64,000 nt of DNA from Acidimicrobiia bacterium (GTDB lineage: Bacteria > Actinomycetota > Acidimicrobiia > Acidimicrobiales > Poriferisodalaceae): assembly GCA_022821985.1 (NCBI GenBank), contig JAJECP010000035.1:186001-250000 (forward strand), read 5' to 3'. Positions 34,802-42,005 of this stretch are shown piece after piece. The notes beneath the pieces are model-generated. The model was not told the origin of the DNA. It saw only the letters and a list, made by a program, of their open reading frames with translations, and did not search any database. Numbering within the stretch: the first letter of the stretch is position 1; every line of letters begins with the position of its first letter. A program made the position numbers and the translations under genes.

Positions 34802-36369
34802 TCAGGTGCCGGTTTCGGTAGGAATTTCAGGGAATTCCAGCGCTTCGGCTGGGACGGCGCCGGCTCGCAGGATGATCGGCTTGTCTCCGGTGACATCCAC
34901 GACGGTGGAAGCGGTCTCCCCCGCCGCGCGGCCGCCGATGACCCGCCCGGGCACCGTTGTTTCGCCCTCGGGAGCGGCCAGGAGCGCCGCTGCCTCGGAC
35001 GCCTCGGCCGGTGTGGGCAGACCGTGCCGATTCGCGCTGGTGCCCGTGACCGGCCCGACGTCGTCGATGAGCCAGCGCAGCCAGCCCAGCGCGGGTGCGC
35101 GCACGCCCAGCGTTTCGCGGCCGTGCAGCCGGTCGGGACCGCCCCGGCGTTTCGCGACCAGCGTCAGGCCGCCGGGCCAGTGCTGCTGGGCCAGCACGCG
35201 GGCAGCCGCGCTCAGCTCTACCAGCTCATCGGCCTGCGCCAGCCCCGAGACCAGGATCGGCATCGGTTCGGTGCGAGGACGCTCCTTGGCTTCGCATACC
35301 CGGGCCACAGCTTCGGTGTCGGCGTAGCGAGCCATGATCCCGCAGAGGGTGTCCGTGGGCACGACCACAAACCCGCCCTCGCGCAGCCATTCGGCGGCGG
35401 CGTTCAGCTCGAGCGCATCGGGCTCAGACTGCGGGCGCGACGCAACCAGCACTCGATCGGAGCCGGCCAGGTCCCGCTCGATTCGCACGCTTTCGTAGCC
35501 GCGGGCGATGGCCATGGCGGTGGCCGCCGGTGCCTGCGTCGCCCCGATTTCCAGCACCAGCAGGCCGCCCGGCGCCAGCCACCCACGGGCATCCCGGAGA
35601 ATCGTGCGGAGCGCGCTCAGCCCGTCGGTGCCGGCATACAACGCCTCGTGCGGTTCCCAGTCGTGGATCTCAGGAGCCAGCACATCGCCGTCGGCCACGT
35701 ACGGCGGGTTGGACACCACGAGATCGAGCCGTCCGCGCAGCGGCCCTGCGACGCGGCCGTCTGTGTGCGGATCCTGGACGCCCCCCAGTGCTTCGAACCA
35801 ATCTCCGTGATGGAGCGAGACGCGACTCGCCGCACTTCCCAAGCCGGCCAGGTTGGCTGCGGCCAGCGCCAGCGCGTCGGCGGAGCTGTCGGTGGCGAAC
35901 ACCCGGGCGTCGGGGACCTCGTGCGCTATCGACATGGCGATCGCGCCGCAGCCCGTGCCGAGATCGGCCACGTTCAATCCGATGGGATGCCGATGCCGGG
36001 CTGTCTCATTGAGCCAGTCGATCGCGAAGCCCGCAACCACCTCGGTTTCGGGGCGAGGAATGAGCGCCCGCCGGTCGGTTGCCAGGTCGAGCTCTCGGAA
36101 TCCCCAGCTGCCGAGCACGTACTGCAGCGGCTCGCCCGCCACCCGACGCGTGGCCATGGCGTCGGCGTGCGCGACCATCCGCACGGTCATCGGAGTCTGC
36201 GGTGCCAGTGCAACCTCGGCGGCACTGGTACCGCTGGCCTCCGCCGCGATGCGGCGCGCGCTCACTTCGGGCTCGGGCATGCCGGCTGCTGCGAACTGCT
36301 CGCGCAGCCCCCGGTACAGATCGCCCAGCGTCAGCCCGTCCTTTGAGGACATAGTCGAGCCGGGTCGGC

Positions 36370-36373
<4 letters not shown>
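34802..36373 (-). CDS. prmC: fusion of PrmC (release-factor glutamine methyltransferase) and TsaC/Sua5 (threonylcarbamoyl-AMP synthase)
   Basis: 523 residues. The N-terminal half (about 10-315) is PrmC, which methylates the GGQ glutamine of release factors: YVLGSWGFRELDLATDRRAL, PRPETEV, the SAM motif VADLGTGCGAIA and catalytic NPPY (222-225). The C-terminal half (about 318-523) is YrdC/TsaC, making threonylcarbamoyl-AMP for t6A37 of tRNA: VVVPTDTLCGIMARYAD, AKERPRTEPMPILVSG and TGTSANRHGLPTPAE. In mycobacteria these are adjacent separate genes. The start GTG at 36373 overlaps the prfA stop (GTGA); an ATG seven codons later is also possible. The product acts on the protein made by its upstream neighbour. 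Confidence 0.9.
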
Positions 36374-37467
<1,094 letters not shown>

Positions 37468-37500: not shown

Positions 37501-38586
37501 TCAGGCACCCGCGGTGGACAGCGTGCGCCATTCGTCGTCGATCTCGACGATCTCTGCAGGACTGTCCAGCCTGGCCGCCATGGCTCTGATGACCTCGTGG
37601 GCGTCGCGTCGCGGCAGGGCCACAGTCAGCTCGGCATCGGGGTCGAGGAAGAGCCGTGCGTCTGCAGCGAATGGCACCACGTCGAGGTCGATGCCGACGC
37701 AGACCACCACGATCAGGCGGCGGCCGTCGGGCGTCAGGCCGTAGGCCACCGCCGGAGCCGGGTCCTTCGGGCCCCCTCGGGGCACTGGCGACGACGCCGC
37801 CCGCAGGCGGCCCGCGTCGACAAGTTCTGGCTGGCGGATGAGCAGAGAGCGCAGCCAGCGGGCGGCACCCATCCGGTTGAGCGGATGCGGAGATGCGCCT
37901 GGCGAGCGGTGAGTTCGCACGACCTCGGCGACCCGGCCGATGGCCTCGGCGGTGGGCTCGTCTGCGTGCAGCAGCGCGAAGGCCTCCCGGTCATGCGTAC
38001 CGACGCCGACCTCGATCTGCCACGCAGTCGCAGGTTCGTAGTCGTCGTCAGGGTCGATGCCGCCGCTGCCCTCACCGGCGCCGCTGGCTTCGCCAACCGG
38101 CGCAGCGGGGACGATGCGGGCCACTTCGAGACCCTCCACCTCACCGGTGATGACGCCGTGCTCGACCGCAATCTCGACACCGGCGCTGGCGAGCAGCGAC
38201 ACGAGCTCAGGCACGCGCGGCGGGGCCGGCTCGGTCGGTCTCGGCAACGACTCAGCAGGCACCGCAGTGTCGTCGCGGATCTGCCACACCACGGGCGGCT
38301 GGGAGAAGCAGGCTGCCCGCCTCGCCAGCAGGCCGCTGTGATCGTCGGCGAAGACATGCGCAGCATCGCACCCGCTGCGAATTGCCAATGCCAGCGCTCC
38401 ACCGAGCGCACGTTCGGGGCGCTCTTGCGCGAGGCATACCACCGCAGGCTCAGCACCGCCGGCTACAGCGAGCGCGCCGTCGTCGGTACCTGAGACTCCG
38501 GCCAACTCCACATCAAGCACGTTGCGGGCCAACACTCGCAGCTTGGCCGCGTGCAGAGCCCGGATGCGATCGGCGTCAAGTGTCAT
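37501..38586 (-). CDS. uncharacterized protein at the prfA-rpmE locus
   Basis: 361 residues, not recognised. It is soluble and acidic, with an N-terminal alpha/beta part (LDADRIRALHAAKLRVLARN, PAVVCLAQERPERALGGALA), a central acidic loop (GEGSGGIDPDDDYEP) and a C-terminal part with RRLIVVVCVGIDLDVVPFAA and VIRAMAARLDSPAEIVEIDD. No catalytic motif or membrane segment is evident. It sits between rpmE and prfA, where mycobacteria have no extra gene, and is spaced 33 and 82 bases from them, so it is probably read with them. Confidence 0.65.
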   Translation of the reverse strand: MTLDADRIRALHAAKLRVLARNVLDVELAGVSGTDDGALAVAGGAEPAVVCLAQERPERALGGALALAIRSGCDAAHVFADDHSGLLARRAACFSQPPVVWQIRDDTAVPAESLPRPTEPAPPRVPELVSLLASAGVEIAVEHGVITGEVEGLEVARIVPAAPVGEASGAGEGSGGIDPDDDYEPATAWQIEVGVGTHDREAFALLHADEPTAEAIGRVAEVVRTHRSPGASPHPLNRMGAARWLRSLLIRQPELVDAGRLRAASSPVPRGGPKDPAPAVAYGLTPDGRRLIVVVCVGIDLDVVPFAADARLFLDPDAELTVALPRRDAHEVIRAMAARLDSPAEIVEIDDEWRTLSTAGA

Positions 38587-38668: not shown

Positions 38669-38926
38669 TCAGCTCCGCCGCTTGCGCTGGCCGTAGCGGC
38701 GCTCGAAGCGTTCCACCCGGCCCGCCGTGTCCACGATCTTCATCTGGCCGGTGAAGAAGGGATGACTGGCGCTGGACAGTTCGACGTTGGCCAGCGGGTA
38801 CGTGTTGCCGTCTGTCCACTCGATCGTGTCGCTGGTCTCGATCGTGGACTGCGTCAGGAAGGCAAAGTCGGCGCTGGCATCGCGGAAGACCACGGGCCGG
38901 TAGTTCGGATGGATGTCGCTCTTCAT
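38669..38926 (-). CDS. rpmE: 50S ribosomal protein L31 type B
   Basis: 85-residue ribosomal protein. [20 protein letters not shown] and [21 protein letters not shown] are diagnostic for the zinc-independent (type B) L31, which lacks the CxxC of type A. In many bacteria type B is used under zinc limitation; here it occupies the standard rho-rpmE-prfA locus, so it may be the only L31 (not checkable here). Confidence 0.95.
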
Positions 38927-38993: not shown

Positions 38994-40427
38994 TCAGCGG
39001 TGGTCGCCGAGGCTGAAGCTGCGGTCGCCGTCGAGGGAAACCTCGCCGGCGTCCAGCTCAGCGATCCCCGGCAGGCCCTCCCCGAACGCGATCTCCAGAT
39101 TCGCAGCCTCTCGCAGGCGGGCCGCCACGAGGTCATCGACCTGGTTGCCCGTCGAAGTACGCGCTGTCGCCACCATCGTGATGGAACCTGCGTCTTCCAA
39201 GTTGCGGGCGCCGCCGAAGAATCTCAGCGTCGAGGTGATGGCCGTACCCACGGCGTCGGCCGGTTGGTGCCGCCCGTTCCCGCCGGCGGCGTAAGCACGT
39301 GCGAGCCGCGTCAAGCCGTCGAAGAGGATGACCACGTCGGCCCCGGCCTCTGCCATGCGCTTCGTGCGCTCCAGCGTGAGCTCGGCCACCGCAAGGTGCT
39401 CCTCGGGAGGCCGATCGAAGGTCGATGCCAGAACCTCGCCGGACGTCTCGAGCCGGCGCGTCATGTCGGTGACGTCCTCGGGCCGCTCCGCAATGAGCAG
39501 GACAATCAGGTGAATGTCGGGATGCTGATCGCCGACCGCAGCGGCCATGGACGCAATCAGCGGAGACGCCGACCGCGTCCCGCTCGCGGTCAGCAAGCCG
39601 CGAGAGCCCAGTCCGATCAACGAGAGGTAGTCGATGGGTGCCAGGGCGCCGGCGCCCTGCTCGCCGGCCAGCGGCAACGCGTCGGTGGGCAGCACCGGCG
39701 TGAGGTCGTCGAACAGCGGTCGTTCAGGTTGCTCGGGCGGCGGCTCGCCATTGAGCGTGTCGAGGCGCAGCAGCGCAGGGTTGCGCTCGCTGCGGGCGGC
39801 CGGGCGGCTGACACCGGTGATCCGGTCGCCGCGGCGCAGGTCGTACTGGCGCACCTGGCGGGCTGCGACGTAGACATCGTCGGCCGACGGCAGCGGACCG
39901 TTCGTGCGCAGGAAGCCGTAGCCCTCGTCGCGCAGGTCGAGCAGGCCGTCGCAGTGAACGGTCTCGCCGACGATCTGCGTGTCGTCGCGCCCTCGACCTC
40001 GCCGGCGGCTCCGTCGGTTGCCTTCCTCGGCTACCGGAGCATCGGGCGCGGCCGCCCCGGCGTCGGCTGCTTCGCCAGCTTCCCCCTCCGCTTCGGCGGC
40101 ACTTTCGGTTGACGCACCTGGGTCGTTCGCCTCGGCTGGCTGTTCTGCAGGGGCGTCATCACCGGTTGCAGGTGCGGCGTCGGCTGGCGGTGCCGGCGTA
40201 CGGGTGCGCTTGGTGACTGCCGGAGCCTTGGACACGGGCGCGGCTTCAGCAGAGCCGTCACCGGTTTCCTCACCGGTGCCCGCCTCGCCGTCGGGGGCCA
40301 AGATCGCGCCGATGATGGTGTTCTTGCGGGCGCGGGGGTTGACCTCGACGCCGAGTGCTGCGGCGATCTGCAGCAGCTCGTCTCGCTCCTTGGATTCCAG
40401 CAAGGCACGATCCGGCATGTCTGACAT
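38994..40427 (-). CDS. rho: Rho transcription terminator homologue lacking the Walker A motif
   Basis: 477 residues at the conserved thrC-rho-rpmE position. Rho_N helices at about 6-44 (ERDELLQIAAALGVE), then a low-complexity Ala/Glu/Arg linker (45-148), and a cold-shock-type RNA-binding domain at 153-228 (CDGLLDLRDEGYGFLRTNGP). The ATPase domain is recognisable (VLLIAERPEDVTDMTRR, GEVLASTFDRPPEEH, DVVILFDGLTRLARAYA, RFFGGARNLEDAGSITMVAT). The Walker A segment, PPKAGKT in ordinary Rho, reads ASGTRSA (281-287), with no Lys or Thr. The C-terminal RNA-motor and arginine-finger region (RKIAERRVFPA...SGTR) is also lost or degenerate and the protein ends about 60-90 residues early. ATP-driven termination is unlikely. 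Confidence 0.85.
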   Translation of the reverse strand: MSDMPDRALLESKERDELLQIAAALGVEVNPRARKNTIIGAILAPDGEAGTGEETGDGSAEAAPVSKAPAVTKRTRTPAPPADAAPATGDDAPAEQPAEANDPGASTESAAEAEGEAGEAADAGAAAPDAPVAEEGNRRSRRRGRGRDDTQIVGETVHCDGLLDLRDEGYGFLRTNGPLPSADDVYVAARQVRQYDLRRGDRITGVSRPAARSERNPALLRLDTLNGEPPPEQPERPLFDDLTPVLPTDALPLAGEQGAGALAPIDYLSLIGLGSRGLLTASGTRSASPLIASMAAAVGDQHPDIHLIVLLIAERPEDVTDMTRRLETSGEVLASTFDRPPEEHLAVAELTLERTKRMAEAGADVVILFDGLTRLARAYAAGGNGRHQPADAVGTAITSTLRFFGGARNLEDAGSITMVATARTSTGNQVDDLVAARLREAANLEIAFGEGLPGIAELDAGEVSLDGDRSFSLGDHR

Positions 40428-40607: not shown

Positions 40608-42005
40608 CTACTGCACAGCCGACCTGACGAAATCGCGGAGCGTGGCGAGGTCGTTCGGGAGCGCAGTGACGTGCTCGTCCCGGTTTGCGAGGCTCGCCAG
40701 CGCGGGCGGGAGATCGGGTTGGCGACCGGTGGCCTCGAGTACTGCTTCGCCGAACTTGGCGGGGTGCGCGGTGGACATCACGGCGATCGGTGTGGTCCAG
40801 CCGCCAGCGGGAGCATCTCGACGCGCGACGGTCAGTGCTACCGCCGTGTGGGGATCGATGAGCCGCTCGTCGACCTCGTTCACTGCTGCGATGGTGGCCG
40901 ATACCTCGTCCTCGCTCGCCGAGCCGGCGTCGAAGCCTGCACGCAGACCTGCCAGCGCCTCAGGCGCCAGTGCGAGCGAGTTCTCGGCCCGGAAGCGGGC
41001 CATGTCGGCAGCCAGTGCAGCACCTCGCCGGTCTCCCAGCTCGAACAGCAGCCGCTCGAAGTTGCTCGACACCTGGATGTCCATCGCCGGGCTGGTGGAA
41101 GGACAAACCTCGCTGATCGACATGTCACCCGTGCGGTAGGTGCGAGCCAGGATGTCGTTGTGGTTGGTGGCCACCACCAGCCGGTCGATGGGCAGACCCA
41201 TGCGCCGGGCCACATCACCCGCGAGGACGTTGCCGAAGTTGCCGGTCGGCACGCAGAACGAGACGGCCCGCTCGGGGGCGCCGAGTCTGACTGCCGTGGT
41301 CACGTAGTAGACGGTCTGCGCTGCGACGCGCGCCCAGTTGATGCTGTTGACCGCACCCAGCCGCATCTGCTCGCGGAACGGCCGATCGGCGAACAGCGCC
41401 TTCACCAGGTCCTGGCAGTCGTCGAACGTGCCGTCGATGGCCACGTTGTGGATGTTCGGGCTGTCCACCGTGGTCATCTGGCGTCGCTGGATCTCGGTGA
41501 CCCGGCCAGCGGGGTGCAGCATCACCAACTCGATGCCCGCCCGGTCCCGACAAGCTTCGATCGCGGCAGACCCGGTGTCTCCCGAAGTGGCTCCCACGAC
41601 GGTCATGAAGCTGCTGCGCCGGGCCAGCTCGTGCTCGAATAGGCGGCCCAGCAGCTGCAGGGCGACATCCTTGAATGACAGCGTCGGCCCCCAGAACAGC
41701 TCGACCAGGTGCTCGCCGGCCGCCAGCGCGCTGAGGGGAACAACATCGGGGTGCGCGAACGTCGAGTAGGCGTCTTGCACCAGTGGCGCCAGATCATCGA
41801 CGCTCAGCGACGGCGCCACGAACGGTGCCAACACCCGTGTCGCCACCTCGTGGTACTCAAGCCCGGCAAATTCCCGCAGCTCGCCCACGCTGAGCACAGG
41901 GAACTCGCGAGGCACGTACAGCCCGCCGTCGGCGGCCAAGCCTTCGAGCAGCACATTGCCGAATTCGAGGACCGGGGCGTCACCCCGCGTGCTCACGTAG
42001 CGCAT
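40608..42005 (-). CDS. thrC: threonine synthase
   Basis: PLP enzyme forming threonine from O-phosphohomoserine. The 465-residue product is of the long, fold-type II group with the N-terminal MRYVSTRGDAPVLEFGNVLL, PLP lysine K112 in GPTLSFKDVALQLLG, TVVGATSGDTGSAAIEA and VPTGNFGNVLAGDVARRMG. It follows hom by 24 bases. The enzyme that supplies its substrate, homoserine kinase (thrB), is not in the 180 bases between this gene and rho. Confidence 0.96.
   Translation of the reverse strand: MRYVSTRGDAPVLEFGNVLLEGLAADGGLYVPREFPVLSVGELREFAGLEYHEVATRVLAPFVAPSLSVDDLAPLVQDAYSTFAHPDVVPLSALAAGEHLVELFWGPTLSFKDVALQLLGRLFEHELARRSSFMTVVGATSGDTGSAAIEACRDRAGIELVMLHPAGRVTEIQRRQMTTVDSPNIHNVAIDGTFDDCQDLVKALFADRPFREQMRLGAVNSINWARVAAQTVYYVTTAVRLGAPERAVSFCVPTGNFGNVLAGDVARRMGLPIDRLVVATNHNDILARTYRTGDMSISEVCPSTSPAMDIQVSSNFERLLFELGDRRGAALAADMARFRAENSLALAPEALAGLRAGFDAGSASEDEVSATIAAVNEVDERLIDPHTAVALTVARRDAPAGGWTTPIAVMSTAHPAKFGEAVLEATGRQPDLPPALASLANRDEHVTALPNDLATLRDFVRSAVQ

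Follow-up and report, generated by a model that had tools for sequence, protein, structure and literature searches.

A Rho orthologue without a Walker A motif is conserved at the rho locus of an Acidimicrobiia genus

The termination factor Rho forms a well-known family and enzymes that have lost activity are familiar from elsewhere, but a catalytically dead Rho has usually been regarded as a laboratory mutant. According to D'Heygere 2015 (PMC4499133), conservation of most key Rho residues extends across more than 1200 species, which makes motor-less exceptions notable. The P-loop lysine is needed for ATP binding and the arginine finger for hydrolysis at the ring interface (PMC4499133, PMC8828861), and it is disputed whether Rho pulls RNA or sits on polymerase and inactivates it (PMC4499133, PMC9908020). 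Mycobacterial Rho resembles the protein described here in coming from Actinomycetota, in carrying an N-terminal insertion that aids RNA binding and in having a residue other than lysine in the R-loop, and there is an earlier claim of motor-uncoupled action (PMC4499133, PMC8828861). It differs in keeping Walker A, together with the catalytic Glu and the Arg finger, and in reportedly requiring ATP hydrolysis; the insertion raises RNA affinity, and the catalytic-Glu mutant E386A, in which ATP hydrolysis is abolished, binds RNA at nanomolar Kd and is inefficient in termination or transcript release (PMC4499133). Structures or models place Rho on polymerase before translocation (PMC9908020, PMC8828861). 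Among the papers listed by searches of open-licence literature, judged by title and abstract opening, we recognised no natural Rho without a Walker A and none that is the sole Rho, conserved and repeatedly arisen without a motor, a search that does not establish absence from print.

We analysed a 64,000-nucleotide stretch of an Acidimicrobiia genome, referred to as the window, in which an open reading frame of 477 amino acids with an ATG start (38994-40427, minus strand), referred to as pseudo-Rho, lies where rho is expected. One strand carries, in this order, lysA, hom, thrC, the pseudo-Rho frame, rpmE, an orf, prfA and a prmC-tsaC fusion. This matches the syntenic rho locus hom-thrC-rho-rpmE-orf-prfA-prmC, and the syntenic rho position given by the first-pass annotation holds. 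The locus comprises the following features:

36370..37467, minus strand: prfA, syntenic marker, in 11 of 11 genus stretches
38669..38926, minus strand: rpmE, encoding type B bL31, a syntenic marker found in all 11 genus stretches
38994..40427, minus strand: coding sequence of pseudo-Rho (477 aa); no other Rho-family match was found in the assembly
40608..42005, minus strand: thrC, syntenic marker, in 10 of 11 genus stretches (the contig of G001 stops early)

The 361-aa orf between rpmE and prfA (37501-38586, minus strand) is present in 11 of 11 genus stretches with a dN/dS of 0.207, and Pfam and NCBIfam profiles give no match to it. A release factor glutamine methyltransferase (PrmC) and a Sua5/TsaC domain (threonylcarbamoyl-AMP synthase) are fused in one 523-aa frame (34802-36373, minus strand). 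In three genus members (L034, L037 and L038, of G002, G005 and G006) the distance from thrC to rho is about 0.9-1.5 kb greater than in the other members with thrC, perhaps through an insertion.

Within pseudo-Rho, we located these elements, listed from the N-terminus onwards:

39987..40016, minus strand: basic patch RRSRRRGRGR, closing the low-complexity N-terminal insertion and invariant in the 9-sequence genus alignment
39738..39950, minus strand: Rho RNA-binding domain PF07497, residues 160-230 (76.5 bits, cut-off 27), primary-site residues kept
39567..39587, minus strand: former Walker A (P-loop), ASGTRSA replacing PPKAGKT, Walker A missing in 11 of 11 genus genomes
39462..39503, minus strand: VLLIAERPEDVTDM, from alignment and translation
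39405-39425, minus strand: STFDRPP, confirmed in the translation
39288..39338, minus strand: DVVILFDGLTRLARAYA, the Walker B strand and following helix with D265 kept, from alignment
39135..39155, minus strand: former R-loop STGNQVD with K326 replaced, from alignment
38997..39020, minus strand: new C-terminal end SFSLGDHR at the expected place of RhoC and the arginine finger, SFSLG[D/E]HR in 11 of 11 genus sequences

The three core segments that the first reading had recognised in the ATPase domain are thus present, at confirmed coordinates, and alignments agree with it that ASGTRSA stands in place of PPKAGKT. Pseudo-Rho shares with canonical Rho (TIGR00767 / PRK09376) its locus, the Rho RNA-binding domain, an alignable core (131-345) and the residues E211, R212 and D265, but it lacks Walker A and RhoC, has degenerate Q- and R-loops and misses both curated cut-offs (268.9 bits against TIGR00767, cut-off 509.45; 278.6 bits against PRK09376, cut-off 315). 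Besides the lost P-loop, DERP is changed to AERP, the Q-loop is remodelled and the R-loop lysine is replaced by Gln. In the genus alignment the Q-loop has lost the conserved glycines 287-288 and retains G282 and R283.

As the first-pass annotation had proposed, the protein ends early and its arginine region (RKIAERRVFPA/SGTR) is degenerate: phmmer alignment to solved E. coli Rho chains spans pseudo-Rho residues 154-449, the final 28 residues are unrelated to RhoC, and RhoC is absent, with the caveat that column 366 is Arg in 9 of 11 genus rows (His in G001 and G006), outside an S/G-T-R context. Since only 67 bp separate the stop codon from the rpmE start, the remaining ~70 Rho residues are physically absent. 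A frameshift or hidden motif was also rejected, in line with the earlier reading, as none of the alternative frames across the P-loop and tail regions encodes a Walker A or RhoC motif. An AlphaFold monomer model built from the shallow 9-sequence genus alignment had a mean pLDDT of 39.3; judged from its sequence, pseudo-Rho probably retains a RecA-like fold.

We next asked how the protein is distributed among relatives. When the assembly that contains the window (3.31 Mb, 89.87% complete) was searched with TIGR00767, the pseudo-Rho frame scored 263 bits and a single further match 27 bits; the latter we take to be ATP synthase. Among 61 genomes searched, all 11 of the genus, whose members are uncultured, carry the same low-scoring protein (257-279 bits) with an intact open reading frame, and no second Rho match was found in these 11 genomes (84-98% complete). 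Their second-best hits, at 24-27 bits and mostly in frames of 492-550 aa (355 in G007), are presumably ATP synthase as well. The search for a second, intact rho that the first-pass annotation had called for was therefore negative in the window's assembly and in the 10 other genus members. That an intact rho lies elsewhere and was missed is very improbable: the window's assembly is incomplete, which leaves some room for it, but pseudo-Rho occupies the rho locus itself and the other ten assemblies are equally devoid of a further match.

The P-loop loss is likewise shared. All 11 genus genomes have [A/T]-x-G-T-x-x-A-S-P-L at the site of the former P-loop, D210 is A in 7 and S in 4, and K326 is Q in 5, A in 5 and D in 1, while the catalytic Glu E211, the Arg valve R212 and the Walker B Asp D265 are kept in all 11. 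So are the primary RNA-site positions 62, 64, 66, 78, 80 and 108 (62 being Tyr for Phe); position 110 holds Asn, which most of the live relatives in the alignment also have. The first-pass annotation had allowed for a local sequence error, to be betrayed by homologues with intact P-loops; such P-loops were seen in other genera only, and inside the genus this explanation fails. The loss is not a local error, and sequencing or assembly error in general is refuted in practice, with a probability we put at next to nothing, by the same losses in 11 separate assemblies, a purifying-selection signal and the lack of any hidden frame in the window.

Two further groups of Rho proteins bear comparison. 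The short-form paralogue NF041509 (paralog_Rho2) shares the Rho core profile, and pseudo-Rho scores 242.4 bits against it but lies far under its cut-off of 628; because no second Rho was found, pseudo-Rho does not accompany a normal Rho as its paralogue. The next most similar proteins fetched, variant Rhos of the same-family sister genera g2 and g4-g7 (354-375 bits to P0001), also have a divergent R-loop and C-terminus but keep GKT, E211 and R366. In these f1 genera (L025-L032, L043-L052) the P-loop reads PPECGKT or PPDCGKT, with the Walker lysine kept, and the R-loop GW[RHL]LD.

We then determined which parts of pseudo-Rho are conserved, using 190 positions that 90% or more of 41 reference rows share, all of them rows whose P-loop is intact. 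Of these positions the genus retains 94% in the RNA-binding domain (48-130), 76% in 196-229 and 86% in 230-277, against 35% in the P-loop zone, 45% in the Q-loop zone, 36% in the R-loop zone and 14% in RhoC. Selection was measured by pairwise NG86 over 55 genus pairs, which are not independent (median dS 0.45-0.74 for the RNA-binding domain, 201-277 and 278-345). dN/dS was 0.065 in the RNA-binding domain and 0.091 over 131-345, the latter divided into 0.172 for the P-loop zone, 0.026 for 201-277 (around E211-D265) and 0.060 for 278-345, compared with 0.030 for rpmE, 0.073 for hom, 0.090 for prfA and 0.126 for thrC in the same genus. Some parts are loosely held, as the whole gene including the low-complexity N-terminus gave 0.173 and the tail 0.508. 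In a genus with live Rho (f18 g40), the P-loop zone was at 0.029 and the RNA-binding domain at 0.104. Constraint has thus been lifted at the former ATP site and the new tail and retained elsewhere, and pseudo-Rho is kept under purifying selection. The earlier suggestion of a lineage that lost Rho function would accordingly stand for the motor and not for the RNA-binding domain or much of the ATPase core.

The strongest conservation, in 201-277, lies within the ATPase core, and it would be needless for a mere RNA binder. This speaks against a job away from the elongation complex, such as an mRNA chaperone, a condensate scaffold or a ribosome-linked factor, which we consider unlikely; such a job would suit the intact RNA-binding domain and the basic, low-complexity N-terminal insertion, and a Bacteroides Rho is reported to form condensates (PMC13269538).

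We built a tree of 99 Rho rows, E. coli included, leaving out ten phylum rows and the fragments G019, G103, G236 and G241 (G020 was never aligned). The catalytic P-loop lysine K184 is missing in 31 of the 99 rows, and the tree needs at least 7 changes at this position, 4 of them forced by well-supported branches; 7 was obtained again from a second tree that omitted the motif columns and G066. Long branches meet in the tree, and mutual attraction of dead rows would tend to lower the count. All 31 K184-less rows keep Y62, F64, R66, D78, Y80 and E108. The lineages differ in their losses, since of the 31 rows only 18 retain E211 and 21 retain R366. In 8 rows K184 has become Arg, a milder loss than replacement by A, S, T or Q. 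By comparison, K184 was present in 38 of 38 above-cut-off Rhos checked in the alignment, a set that covers a minority of the 153 over the cut-off in the order sample.

That sample, an even draw of 198 genomes, contained a Rho at E 1e-40 in 183. Of 30 Rhos below the cut-off, 29 were inspected (all but G247): 17 are without K184 and 12 keep it (3 being fragments). The 17 comprise G053, G066, G118, G124, G193, G151 and G248, together with five genomes of the window's genus and five f27-g46 species (in which DERP has also changed to DTPP). In family f18, 31 genomes were searched and 30 had a Rho match, with K184 lost in 10 (G053 and G063 of g27; G071, G079, G084 and G088 of g44; G064 and G081 of g37; G066 of g39; G078 of g43). 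Families f1, f18, f20, f27, f41 and f59 each contain rows with and without K184, the K184 row of f41 being a fragment. In the phylum sample, 227 of 246 genomes had a Rho at 1e-40 and 211 were over the cut-off; among 10 aligned low scorers, 8 are without K184 (G456, G356, G406, G291, G409, G307, G398, G460) and 2 keep it (G349, G368), the fragments G343, G361, G463, G471 and G481, as well as G479 and others such as G435 and G461, being left unaligned.

Retention of the RNA-binding domain is strong in the window's order and weaker in f92 (67% of conserved positions) and f100 (57%). Rho is extremely eroded in L155-L158 (f100) and L153-L154 (f92), with the Q-loop shortened away, and in f100 it matches the profile only up to position ~268. 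Among other observations in the phylum sample, seven genomes of family f80 (G267, G329, G339, G378, G388, G440, G470; 96-99% complete) had no Rho match at 1e-40; when two of them were searched again, no match reached 1e-15 in G267, and G329 yielded nothing beyond a match of 69 bits, apparently to a different RecA-like ATPase. The Rho frame L143 (G479:C3:511221-512279) contains 2 in-frame TGA codons in a genome 98% complete, reflecting either recoding or error.

The recurrence of K184 loss in several lineages would also be expected if Rho-dependent termination had been abandoned and the gene were eroding to loss, with the RNA-binding part eroding last. Such slow decay is in keeping with the 15 order-sample genomes that had no Rho match at E 1e-40 (11 of them <90% complete), with the relaxed P-loop zone and tail of the genus, and with the erosion of the RNA-binding domain itself in f92 and f100. 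Other dead-Rho lineages are indeed less tightly held than the window's genus: f18-g44 has a core dN/dS of 0.125, constraint in f59-g78 is weak throughout (0.20-0.37 across the RNA-binding domain and core; core 0.31, RNA-binding domain 0.35; 3 pairs, with 1 of 3 rows retaining K184), and in f27-g46 dS is saturated, so that its low ratios rest on 1-3 pairs. For the window's genus, however, the frame is open in 11 of 11 genomes and the ratios of three conserved regions fall in the range of the housekeeping neighbours, and we judge decay improbable there.

We also explored whether the genus differs in other determinants of transcript ending. U-tract hairpins numbered 9 in 304 kb of the genus, where three shuffles predict ~8, and 3 in 400 kb of five canonical genomes, where ~4 are expected; the same scan without shuffles found 8 in 49 kb of E. 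coli. The density per kb is higher in the genus than in the canonical genomes, yet not above the expectation from its own composition. Folding after gene ends, based on crude gene calls (198 genes in 304 kb), was not stronger than inside genes in the genus (mean z, convergent 0.05, n=30; tandem -0.14, n=57), compared with -0.84 (n=38) and -0.41 (n=58) in four canonical genomes of other families and 0.07 (n=4) and -1.61 (n=10) in the E. coli control. As the same-family genome G018, with a live Rho, shows no signal either (convergent -0.09, n=10; tandem 0.00, n=12), the difference is not attributable to motor loss. These weak tests gave no sign of compensation by classical intrinsic terminators in the genus stretches scanned, and coding-strand purine content, at 0.496-0.508 for five genomes of the genus and 0.483-0.495 for five canonical genomes, was not informative.

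Other motors occurred in dead-Rho and live-Rho genomes alike. Mfd was over its cut-off in 25 of 25 genomes, and HelR-profile matches, which we read as HelD-like proteins, occurred in 25 of 25 (best 1.9e-27, G001) with none over the cut-off. In 10 of the 11 genus genomes (for example, G000:C26:18901-20949) the Mfd match starts late, between profile positions 228 and 236, and in G009 it is whole; this differs from the relatives searched, and the N-terminal part of the genus Mfd may have diverged. Of 28 genomes searched for NusG, 27 have it. The KOW loop of NusG is NIFGRETPVELDF in 11 of 11 genus genomes, in keeping with a retained contact to Rho, though this loop also serves other partners. Genome G050 (99% complete) had no NusG match and only a 23-bit match to Rho; its genus-mate G133 has a 602-bit Rho.

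Taken together, these data favour, in our estimate with somewhat better than even confidence, a rho orthologue turned into a maintained pseudo-ATPase that binds RNA, probably faces the polymerase and lacks ATP-driven translocation. The first-pass idea of a non-catalytic Rho relative is supported by what can be read from the protein and from the search for a second Rho. Because the P-loop lysine is lost and the arginine-finger region is gone, pseudo-Rho is predicted to be unable to hydrolyse ATP or move along RNA. We do not class it among the Rho termination factors, because it falls short in family score, Walker A, secondary-site loops and RhoC; it would work like the RNA-binding half of Rho. 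Its RNA-binding domain would still grip C-rich single-stranded nascent RNA, and the conserved RecA-like core most plausibly still docks on a partner, the elongation complex and NusG being the likeliest candidates. Since the dead mycobacterial enzyme binds RNA and Rho docks before translocation, pseudo-Rho could occupy nascent RNA and the elongation complex without exerting a pull, acting as a motor-free roadblock, pausing or standby factor rather than a helicase.

Its effect on RNA polymerase might be slowing or inactivation, that is, translocation-independent termination, or else shielding of the transcript. We rank motor-free inactivation or pausing first, somewhat short of an even chance; RNA protection or anti-termination comes second as a distinct possibility, the antiterminator-like factor of the first-pass annotation being a putative reading; and a role outside elongation is the least likely of the three. 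Full motor-free termination is disfavoured because the catalytic-Glu mutant of mycobacterial Rho terminates poorly. Extending the argument to the phylum, Rho may have become a motor-free elongation-complex factor more than once, in several actinomycetotal lineages, pausing or inactivating RNA polymerase from the nascent-RNA-bound state alone, a generalisation that we advance tentatively and regard as doubtful.

Evolution appears to have made a catalytically dead Rho repeatedly and to have kept it. A homology-based call of 'rho present' is thus not equivalent to Rho-dependent termination, and the genus poses the question of how transcripts end in cells for which neither a Rho with a complete ATPase site nor, in the stretches scanned, above-chance U-tract hairpins were found. 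It also raises the question of what purpose a Rho that cannot move would serve. Pseudo-Rhos would allow a direct test of the motor-independent part of Rho action and, if they do pause or inactivate polymerase as suggested for several lineages, would be a natural demonstration that part of the work of Rho needs no translocation.
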